Positions 27,000 through 29,794 of a stretch of 64,000 nt of DNA are shown here, in pieces. The DNA lies in assembly GCF_003148475.1 (NCBI RefSeq), contig NZ_QGGG01000013.1:62001-126000 (forward strand), given 5' to 3'. The notes under the pieces are model-generated. The model did not search any database and was not told the DNA's origin. It saw only the letters and a list, made by a program, of their open reading frames with translations. Source of the stretch: Pseudaminobacter salicylatoxidans. Its GTDB lineage: Bacteria > Pseudomonadota > Alphaproteobacteria > Rhizobiales > Rhizobiaceae. Position numbers and translations under genes: made by a program. Position 1 is the first letter of the stretch, and each line of letters begins with the position of its first letter.

Positions 27000-27539
27000 T
27001 CAGAAGGGTTTCACGACCACCAGAATGACGATGAGGACCATCAGAACGGTCGGAATCTCGTTGACGATGCGCCAGTGCCGGGCCGGCTTGGTGTTGCGAT
27101 CTTCCGCAAAACGGCGCACCGAGGCGGAAAGATAGCCGTGCACGCCCGACATCAGGACCACCAGGGCAATCTTGCCGTGCAGCCAGCCGCCCTGGAAGGC
27201 AAAGCCCTTCCAGGCGAGCCACAGGCCGAACACCCAGGTGACGATCATGGCCGGATTGATGATGGCGCGCAGCAGGCGGCGCTCCATCACCTTGAAGGTC
27301 TCGGACTGCACCGAGCCCTTTTCGGCATCCGCGTGATAAACGAACAGCCGCGGCAGATAGAGCATGCCGGCCATCCAGGAAATGACCGCGATGATGTGGA
27401 TCGCCTTGGCCCAGGGATAGAAACCGTCGGTGCCGAGCCAGAACAGGAGGCCCGTCAGTACCAGAAGGATGACGATGGCGATCACGGCCCGCTGCATGGC
27501 CTTGCCGCCGCTCGATTGTGGCGTGTTCGTTGCGTTCAT
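27000..27539 (-). CDS. hemJ: Protoporphyrinogen IX oxidase HemJ
   Basis: 179 residues with four or five membrane helices. The HemJ signature [27 protein letters not shown] contains the conserved histidine, and a second conserved region is [21 protein letters not shown]. HemJ oxidises protoporphyrinogen IX to protoporphyrin IX in the inner membrane, the penultimate step of heme synthesis. Its start overlaps the hemE stop by four bases, so both are one unit. Confidence 0.94.
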
Positions 27540-28570
27540 TTGCCCGAATAGCTCCTCACCTGGCGGATCATCGCCTCGACATGCTCGATCGGCGTTTCCG
27601 GCGTGATGCCGTGGCCGAGATTGAACACGAAGGGACCGTCGCCGAGCGCCCGCAGAATGTCGTCCACGCCTTCGCGCAACGCCCGTCCGCCGGCCACCAG
27701 CCTCAGCGGGTCGAGATTGCCTTGCACCGCCCCTTGCGCCTGCAATCGGCGCGCCTGCGAGAGCGGCACGGTCCAGTCGAGGCCGAGCCCCGTCACGCCC
27801 GTTTTCGAACGATAGGCGTCATAGCGGCTGCCTGCTCCTCGCGGGAAGCCGATCACCGGCACGTCGGGATATACGGCATGCACTTTGCGCACGATCTCGG
27901 CGACCGGCTTCACGCAGAAGGCGTCGAACGAGGCTTCATCGAGAATGCCTGCCCAGGAATCGAAGATCTGCACCGTGTCGGCACCCTGTTCGATCTGCCG
28001 GATCAGATATTGCGCCGAGTAGTCCGCAAGGATCGACAGCAGCCGTTCCATCGCTTCCGGGTTGCGATAGGCAAACAGCCGCGCCGGTCCCTGATCTGGC
28101 GTGCCGTGGCCGGCGATCATATAAGTGGCCAGCGTCCATGGCGCGCCGCAGAAACCGATCAGCGTCGTCTCGGCCGGCAGTTCGCCGCGCAGCCGCTTTA
28201 CCGTCTCGTAGACCGGCGCGAGATGCTGATGGAAATCGGAACCGTCCAGCCGTTCGACATCGTCGGCCGTCATCGGTGTCATCAGCGGGCCTCGGCCCTC
28301 TTCAAAGCGCAGGTCACGGCCGAGCGCATGCGGTACGACGAGAATATCCGAAAACAGGATCGATGCGTCGAAACCGAAGCGCCGGATCGGCTGCAGCGTC
28401 ACTTCGACGGCAAAATCGGGATTGTAGCAAAGGTCGAGGAACCCTCCCGCCGTCTTGCGCGTTTCCCGATACTCCGGAAGGTAGCGGCCGGCCTGACGCA
28501 TCATCCAGAGCGGCGTCGGGGAAACGGTCTGGCCCTTCAGAACATCCAGCATGGCGCGTCTTGCGGTCAT
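27536..28570 (-). CDS. hemE: Uroporphyrinogen decarboxylase
   Basis: 344 residues. The first signature [17 protein letters not shown] and the second, [14 protein letters not shown], are intact, as is the catalytic [12 protein letters not shown] segment. HemE converts uroporphyrinogen III to coproporphyrinogen III. It is the first gene leftward of the putative origin and is transcribed away from it, together with hemJ. The hemE-origin arrangement is classical in alphaproteobacteria. Confidence 0.98.
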
Positions 28571-28972
28571 GGTCGCGTCGTTCTCCCAGTTTGTCCTGAA
28601 AATATAATTCTCAAGGAAAAGAGTCTTTTGATTCTTAGACTCTGTTGGAATCGAGAATTGTCACTTATCCACGCAGCCCAACCCGTCGCCAGAAAGCATA
28701 TTGTCGCGCTTGGCTGGCTGTGGATTGGGGAATTATGGGGATTATCTCAATTCGATTAGGAATTACAAGCGCTTGCGTAGAAGCTTGTTTAAGGCTCTCG
28801 GGTGGCCGCGATATGGCGGCTTGCCTTATCCCCATTTCCATCCACGGCCGGGCTGCGAAACTGACAGCGGGGTGAATTGTGGACAAGTCGCCATCTGATA
28901 CAGTCGCCGGCGACCGCCATCGGCAAAACGCCACCCTTATCCACATTTGACCACAGAGACCGGGCAAAGCTT
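28571..28972. other. oriC: Putative chromosomal replication origin (oriC)
   Basis: A 402-base gap between hemE and the PPDK/PEPS regulator gene, the same neighbours as the Caulobacter and Rickettsia origins. It holds a perfect DnaA box TTATCCACA (28937-28945) and near matches: TTATCCACG (28665-28673), TTATCCCCA (28826-28834), TTGTCCACA on minus (28879-28887) and TTGTTCACA on minus (28972-28980, overlapping the next start codon). Four GANTC sites cluster at 28621-28652. An AT-rich stretch at about 28731-28770 could be the unwinding element. The call is by position and motif, not by experiment. Confidence 0.85.
28621..28652. promoter_or_regulatory. Cluster of four GANTC (CcrM-type) methylation sites in the origin
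   Basis: GAGTC at 28621, GATTC at 28630, GACTC at 28638 and GAATC at 28648, starting 9, 8 and 10 bases apart. The first and third lie in a 7-bp inverted repeat AGAGTCT/AGACTCT (28620-28626 and 28637-28643). Confidence 0.75.
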
Positions 28973-29794
28973 GTGAACAAACCCCAGAGCTTCTTCCATC
29001 TGCACCTGATTTCGGACGCCACCGGCGAAACGCTGCTGGCGGCCGGCCGGGCGGCGTCGGCGCAATACAAGGATGCGCGCGCCATCGAACACATCTACCC
29101 GCTGATCCGCACCGAAAAGCAGCTCATGAAGGTGTTCGAGGACATAGAGGAGGAGCCGGGCATCGTGCTCTACACGATGGTGGACCAGAGCCTTGCGCGC
29201 ATGATCGACAGCCGCTGCGTGGCCATGGGCCTGCCTTACGTCTCGGTGCTGGAGCCGGTGCTTGGCGTGTTCCAGTCTTATCTCGGCACGCCGGCCGGGC
29301 GTCGCGTCGGCGCGCAGCATGTGCTCAACGCCGAATATTTCCGGCGCATCGACGCGCTGAACTTCACCATGGAGCATGATGACGGGCAATTGCCCGACGA
29401 CGTGGACGATGCCGACATCGTGCTGATCGGCATTTCGCGCACCTCCAAGACGCCGACCAGCATCTATCTGGCCAATCGCGGCATCAAGACAGCCAATATC
29501 CCTATCGTGCTCGGCGTGCCGCTGCCCGAGAGCCTCGCTTCCGCGACCAAGCCCCTGATCGTCGGGCTTGTCGCCACCGCCGAGCGCATCTCGCAGGTGC
29601 GCCAGAACCGGTTGCTCGGCACGACGCCCGGCTTCGAGGGGCAGAGCTACATCGATCGCGCGACGATCAGCGAGGAACTGGCCTATGCAAGGCAGATCTG
29701 CACACGCCATGGCTGGCCGATGATCGATGTCAGCCGCCGCTCCATCGAGGAAACCGCGGCGGCAATCGTTGCCCTGCGGAACAAGACGCGATAA
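28973..29794 (+). CDS. Pyruvate, phosphate dikinase / PEP synthase regulatory protein (DUF299)
   Basis: 273 residues from a GTG start ([15 protein letters not shown]). The P-loop-like motif [17 protein letters not shown] is the family nucleotide-binding site. These bifunctional kinase/pyrophosphorylases switch PPDK or PEP synthase on and off by phosphorylating the catalytic Thr. The gene flanks the origin, as does its homologue RP001 in Rickettsia. A DnaA-like box overlaps the start codon, so origin activity and transcription could interfere. Confidence 0.95.

Follow-up and report, generated by a model that had tools for sequence, protein, structure and literature searches.

The gap between hemE and PPSR in the alphaproteobacterial DNA examined here holds four GANTC sites within 32 bp, and the question is what keeps them there: methylation by CcrM, the opening of a replication origin, the control of a neighboring gene, or chance. 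An earlier note on this DNA had proposed a dense GANTC cluster in a probable oriC that could act like a hemimethylation switch. We followed up this proposal in the window (the whole stretch of 64,000 nucleotides that was analyzed, to which all coordinates refer) and in related genomes. The four starts that had been given, 28621, 28630, 28638, and 28648, are exact, and all fall in the 402-bp hemE/PPSR gap (Table 1).

Table 1. Features of the hemE/PPSR locus, in window coordinates
Feature	Position	Strand	Basis
hemE, uroporphyrinogen decarboxylase	27536..28570	-	NCBIfam TIGR01464, 416.6 bits
Intergenic gap with probable oriC	28571..28972	.	gene order, DnaA boxes, skew switch in relative G302
Least stable 60 bp, probable DNA unwinding element	28599..28658	.	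nearest-neighbour energy
GANTC site 1 (GAGTC)	28621..28625	.	GANTC in 109/153 family-level gaps
Conserved core TTNTGATTCTNNGASTCTGT	28626..28645	+	<=4 mismatches in 153/153 family-level gaps
GANTC site 2 (GATTC)	28630..28634	.	GATTC in 113/153 family-level gaps
GANTC site 3 (GACTC)	28638..28642	.	153/153 family-level gaps
GANTC site 4 (GAATC)	28648..28652	.	GANTC in 43/153 family-level gaps
DnaA box TTATCCACG	28665..28673	+	1 mismatch
DnaA-box-like CAATCCACA	28719..28727	-	2 mismatches
DnaA-box-like TAATCCCCA	28736..28744	-	2 mismatches
DnaA box TTATCCCCA	28826..28834	+	1 mismatch
DnaA box TTGTCCACA	28878..28886	-	1 mismatch
DnaA box TTATCCACA	28937..28945	+	perfect
DnaA-box-like TTGACCACA	28947..28955	+	2 mismatches
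PPSR, pyruvate phosphate dikinase regulatory protein	28973..29794	+	NCBIfam NF003742, 339 bits

The hemE/PPSR gap as a probable origin

The 402-bp gap is very probably the chromosomal oriC, because gene order, DnaA boxes, and a skew switch beside PPSR in the complete relative G302 all agree. hemE and PPSR, the latter of which we take to be the DUF299 or RP001 gene of hemE-type origins, diverge around the gap, the arrangement that marks an origin of this type. Five DnaA-type boxes had been claimed to the right of the cluster, without positions; the gap contains seven matches with up to two mismatches, four of them with at most one, in line with the several boxes expected of an origin. In G302, which was sampled as 20 stretches of 20 kb and has PPSR at 599 kb, the stretches at 0.00, 0.24, and 0.48 Mb have a negative GC skew and the one at 0.59 Mb a positive one; the skew then stays mostly positive up to 2.88 Mb (with one negative stretch at 1.44 Mb) and is negative in every sampled stretch from 3.12 to 4.40 Mb. 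The sign thus switches at the PPSR/origin site, the point on which the assignment had been made to depend. The skew of the window itself, taken from a genome in 43 contigs, has its cumulative minimum at about 24 kb and a second dip at about 30 kb, which is compatible with an origin but not sharp.

The density of the cluster is real. None of 5,000 shuffles of the 402-bp gap produced four GANTC in 32 bp, whereas at least four anywhere in the gap occurred in 485 of 5,000. The window as a whole contains 90 GANTC, or 1 per 711 bp, versus 310 expected from dinucleotide shuffles; given this rarity, the random rate of 1 in 256 quoted earlier understates the contrast. When the 90 sites were placed at random, 17 of 20,000 placements gave four in 32 bp. 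Likewise, in a 400-kb sample of G302 (the 20 stretches, with 530 GANTC), the sole cluster of at least three sites in 32 bp is at its origin. Among 139 overlapping AT-rich 100-bp segments (GC content of at most 47%) from the window and these 400 kb, 5 hold at least three GANTC; four of them lie at the two origins and one elsewhere, at L246:1051-1150 (G302, about 3.36 Mb), where three sites occur.

All four sites are inside the least stable 60-mer of the gap, and only 59 of the 63,941 60-mers in the window are less stable by nearest-neighbor energy. Several sites of the resident solitary methylase thus share the stretch that would be expected to melt most readily, and the cluster, flanked by hemE on one side and the DnaA boxes on the other, probably sits in the DNA unwinding element. 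Among relatives, 148 of 153 family-level gaps have the conserved core inside their least stable 60-mer (margin, 5 bp). The core, placed by best match, a procedure that favors its own letters, has T at offsets 0, 3, 6, and 9 and C at offset 8 in all 153, and a T at every third base is a triplet pattern that resembles DnaA-trios. The unwinding arm of Escherichia coli also carries a triplet pattern.

Conservation of the GANTC row

The comparison covers 219 loci with both hemE and PPSR, the window among them, drawn from 80 named genomes plus further genomes. They yielded 206 distinct gaps, of which 153 have a PPSR identity of at least 66% (family level) and 53 a lower one (order level, outside the family). 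Loci L067, L113, L115, L157, L158, L164, and L170 were dropped for want of a hemE match, L141 to L143 are not origin loci, and L001, which is the window itself, was left out of the counts. A PPSR match (E value, 0.001) was missing from 65 of 297 family genomes, and the 20 of these that were listed are 88 to 100% complete.

The cluster is present in close relatives, and the comparison of spacings that the earlier note had called for shows sites 1, 2, and 3 recurring at unchanged offsets, in 109, 113, and 153 of the 153 family-level gaps, respectively. Site 3 is the constant member of the row and reads GAGTC in 115 gaps and GACTC in 38, never with A or T in the middle. Site 1 is more varied (GAGTC in 42 gaps, GAATC in 33, GATTC in 31, and GACTC in 3). 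In the 22 gaps with a PPSR identity of 66 to 74%, site 3 is found in all 22, with CTATTTCTTAGAGTC as the reading in 17, and sites 1, 2, and 4 are found in only one or two each. We regard sites 1 and 2 as gains of the Mesorhizobium-like clade and site 4 as probably incidental. On the right-hand side of the core, at roughly +124 and +137 from its start, a further GANTC pair with a spacing of about 13 bp occurs in 65 of the 153 family-level gaps and in 50 of 77 named loci, e.g., at gap positions 182 and 195 of L063; it is absent from the window.

Several details of the cluster that had been emphasized fare less well across the family. The distances of 9, 8, and 10 bp match a helical turn loosely, and with site 4 present in so few gaps a helical-turn array finds no support as the key feature. 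The inverted repeat that includes two of the sites exists (AAAAGAGTCT/AGACTCTGTT), but complementary middle bases at sites 1 and 3 are seen in only 18 of the 109 family-level gaps with both sites, and the repeat was discarded as a functional unit. One site of each variant is a true description of this DNA, but it applies to only 13 of the 153 family-level gaps, the window's included, and hence is no general property.

Conservation of a word does not by itself identify what is selected, and we counted changes per column on a PPSR tree (FastTree) of the 131 gaps with a PPSR identity of at least 74%. At site 3 the G, A, T, and C columns never change, the middle base changes 13 times and only between C and G, and presence of the site does not change at all. 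At site 1 the counts for the same four columns are 14, 12, 6, and 14, against 26 for the middle base, the latter matching the neighboring columns (22 to 28 each at offsets -18 to -8). At site 2 all rows with GANTC share one middle base, and most gaps that have lost GA still have TC, so that something else accounts for this site at least in part. The columns of site 4 change 7, 12, 8, 25, and 4 times in order, which does not follow the GANTC pattern and does not look selected as GANTC. Repeated loss and gain is seen at sites 1, 2, and 4, with 18, 9, and 16 presence changes, respectively. On balance, we consider it fairly likely that sites 1 and 3 are under selection for GANTC as such. Site 3, however, lies in the nearly invariant run GASTCTGT, and some other protein may be what fixes its letters. 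Its middle base (28640) is only ever G or C over some 13 swaps; a free middle base should also yield A and T.

Outside the family, the first 130 bp of the 53 order-level gaps hold GANTC at 2.4 times expectation (84 versus 35.2; z, 9.2), the rest at 1.2 times, and eight control words range from 0.57 to 1.59 times in the same 130 bp. In 9 of these 53 gaps, the first 130 bp contain at least three GANTC within 60 bp. In the first 130 bp of the family-level gaps GANTC reaches 4.26 times expectation, with the control words AGNCT, GTNAC, and CTNAG at 2.16, 2.13, and 1.81; since three control words stand at 1.8 times or more, shared descent inflates the family-level figure. In one family of the order, f4, two genomes (L123 and L129) have RAMA, the CcrM-type domain, but their gaps lack GANTC over the first 260 bp.

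Genomes devoid of CcrM appeared to offer a natural control. Within the order 194 of 199 genomes have RAMA, and the contrast was therefore drawn in the class, where 57 of 70 loci were usable (12 lacked a hemE match and 1 had a gap of 1,612 bp). There, 21 genomes have a PPSR over the cut-off and no RAMA hit; 20 were used (G666, with the gene at a contig start, was skipped), giving 14 usable gaps. GANTC stands at 2.1 times expectation in the first 130 bp of these 14 RAMA-negative gaps (13 versus 6.3; z, 2.9) and at 1.45 times in the 43 RAMA-positive ones (30 versus 20.6; z, 2.3), one of which (L258) was included on a hit that falls short of the family cut-off; the numbers are small, and a missing RAMA hit is no proof of a missing GANTC methylase. 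The groups are not separated, the excess in RAMA-negative genomes being no smaller. An excess that also occurs without RAMA speaks against the idea that it follows CcrM. The excess in other orders is weak. At four class loci from other orders (L260, L261, L271, and L284), an array of TAG, TTG, or TGG triplets leads into a CCTGT stretch, with GAATC immediately in front of this stretch or inside it.

Chance, a promoter, or DnaA alone

Chance clustering in an AT-rich stretch is highly improbable. Such stretches do favor GANTC, shuffles of the AT-rich segment 28591-28665 containing 0.8 sites on average, but only 2 of 5,000 shuffles of this segment reach four in 32 bp, and for sites 1 to 3 chance is ruled out by their recurrence at the same offsets. 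We also think it improbable, although less so, that the cluster serves as a promoter region under GcrA/CcrM control, for hemE or for an origin RNA, with the origin merely its host. The GANTC sites do lie 51 to 82 bp upstream of the hemE start, methylated GANTC is described as a target of GcrA in an excerpt of PMC8116508, and transcription of hemE in Caulobacter is said to matter for replication (PMC8959179, in excerpt). What argues against a promoter is the distance to the flanking genes. Over 164 gaps, 11 of them outside the family, the core starts a median of 348 bp from the PPSR start (standard deviation, 8 bp), whereas anything from 23 to 410 bp separates it from hemE, and in 13 family-level gaps the core is 144 to 410 bp from hemE yet 347 to 350 bp from PPSR. 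No in-frame upstream ATG or GTG that might be the true hemE start exists in 12 of these 13, nor in 12 of the 15 gaps with more than 90 bp to hemE. A distance fixed to PPSR and variable to hemE indicates that the element is part of the origin and not of a hemE promoter. Furthermore, the only match in a sigma-70-like scan is at 28768-28741, with none at the cluster, although a simple consensus may miss alphaproteobacterial promoters, and no Rfam family reaches threshold in the gap. Extra DNA of about 90 to 350 bp between hemE and the core was noted in 13 Mesorhizobium-like loci (L035, L042, L060, L066, L070, L074, L090, L092, L095, L098, L101, L104, and L105).

A substantial possibility, if somewhat short of an even one, is that DnaA and duplex opening suffice to explain the letters, with methylation a bystander. 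The core would then be the strand-capture part of the unwinding element, a triplet array with T in every third place and a spacer after it, and the GANTC in TTCTGATTCTTAGASTCTG would be incidental. This fits the invariant T and C positions of the core, the arrays of TTG or TAG triplets at the same place in several relatives outside the family, the fixed middle base and retained TC of site 2, and the GANTC excess without RAMA. On the box-reading strand, moreover, a box with up to 3 mismatches together with at least five NAN triplets is found in 51% of the 53 order-level gaps versus 6 to 7% of shuffles. The same type of test is weaker in the family (at least four triplets, 44% versus 14% of shuffles; at least five, 10% versus 3%), and DnaA alone explains neither the stronger retention of GA and TC than of the middle base at site 1 nor the restriction of site 3 to swaps between C and G. 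Membership in the DnaA-trio class proper was considered and rejected. The rule for the basal unwinding system, as excerpted from PMC8287927 (section 13), asks for a DnaA box with up to 2 mismatches, a spacer of 0 to 16, and at least three NAN triplets. The cluster shares with this system an AT-rich arm, a base fixed at every third position, and a DnaA-box-like sequence alongside, but the nearest box needs 4 mismatches and strand and register are unsettled, so we do not class it there. In Clostridioides difficile the trios are placed on the strand opposite the box-reading strand (PMC7561715, in excerpt); the test was run on both strands, and the canonical strand gave at most a weak excess.

Methylation and the relation to known origins

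The explanation we put forward, tentatively and with a little less than even confidence, is that the cluster consists of CcrM sites built into the unwinding element on the hemE side of oriC, beside the DnaA boxes, where they may serve as a safeguard of initiation. Its location part, the unwinding element on the hemE side of oriC, is highly likely to be correct; a role of methylation in initiation is possible but doubtful. The source genome encodes CcrM (L141, 377 amino acids; best solved structure, CcrM 6pbd; E value, 2e-171) and GcrA, which makes methylation of the GANTC sites in the host likely on the strength of gene content. A second, partial GcrA-family match of 51 residues lies in the same genome at G000:C12:125727-125879 (L143). 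A hemimethylation reader of the SeqA type was looked for in the source genome, with no match to PF03925.

By analogy with the Dam sites of E. coli oriC, hemimethylation might delay reopening. The GANTC sites would be fully methylated before firing, departure of the fork would leave them hemimethylated on both daughters until CcrM acts late in the cycle, and the hemimethylated element might open less readily or bind DnaA, GcrA, or another reader differently. The outcome would be a mild safeguard against early refiring. In Bacillus subtilis, DnaA contacts the amino group of a captured adenine (PMC10721633, in excerpt), and it is conceivable that nearby methyl groups matter; the more specific possibility, that the very adenine contacted by DnaA at its N6 is the one methylated by CcrM, was dropped, as there is no settled register. 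A stronger version, in which CcrM methylation directly gates origin opening in the Mesorhizobium-like clade, seems unlikely to us. N6-methyl groups would then lie on the very segment that DnaA has to capture as a single strand, and only the fully (or only the hemi-) methylated element would open efficiently. Published tests of a CcrM effect on DnaA-driven initiation in alphaproteobacteria were found for two species, and both were negative: initiation control in Caulobacter was normal without CcrM (excerpt of PMC3973325), and neither depletion nor overexpression of CcrM had a significant effect on Agrobacterium ori1 (excerpt of PMC11514494). These results argue against a strong role of CcrM in initiation. 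Agrobacterium ori1, reported to be insensitive to CcrM, may be among the relatives that keep site 3 alone.

We read the arrangement, CcrM sites in an unwinding element, as a variant of a known one. In E. coli oriC, too, sites of the lineage's solitary adenine methylase, Dam, recur in the AT-rich arm beside a DnaA box. The 451 bases around that origin (L251) contain 18 GATC, and those at 95, 111, 126, and 139 are in the AT-rich arm to the left of TGTGGATAA, where GATC heads the 13-mers. GATC follows TTATTA by one base there, and here site 3 comes directly after TTCTTA (TTATTA in L027 and L029). In contrast to E. coli, methylase and motif are different, SeqA has no match, the spacing is 8 to 10 rather than 13 to 16 bp, and sequestration is not proven for the GANTC cluster.

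Cori of Caulobacter and other hemE-type alphaproteobacterial origins share the gene neighborhood of the hemE/PPSR gap. The present locus differs from them in that the 402-bp gap contains no TTAAN7TTAA CtrA site with fewer than two mismatches; the fixed 9-8 bp row, found here in the Mesorhizobium-like clade, may be a further difference. For Caulobacter and its close relatives, GANTC motifs within the origin have been described (PMC3973325, in excerpt, citing Shaheen 2009). Origins of the repABC type likewise are alphaproteobacterial replication regions rich in CcrM sites, and a hemimethylation block has been proposed for ori2 of this type (excerpts of PMC11514494 and PMC6090056), but those are RepC-driven secondary replicons and this is a DnaA-driven chromosomal origin. 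Searches of an open-licence library brought up no description of the four-GANTC cluster; an earlier mention elsewhere is possible.

With this cluster, the Mesorhizobium-like clade would be a second lineage that carries the sites of its own methylase in the unwinding arm. Since three recurrent CcrM sites occupy a defined stretch of 22 bp (28621-28642), the question of their function is testable with a few point mutations, and the cluster would be a good place to test whether methyl marks control the timing of replication start. Direct gating, if true, would amount to a once-per-cycle licence for replication without SeqA.
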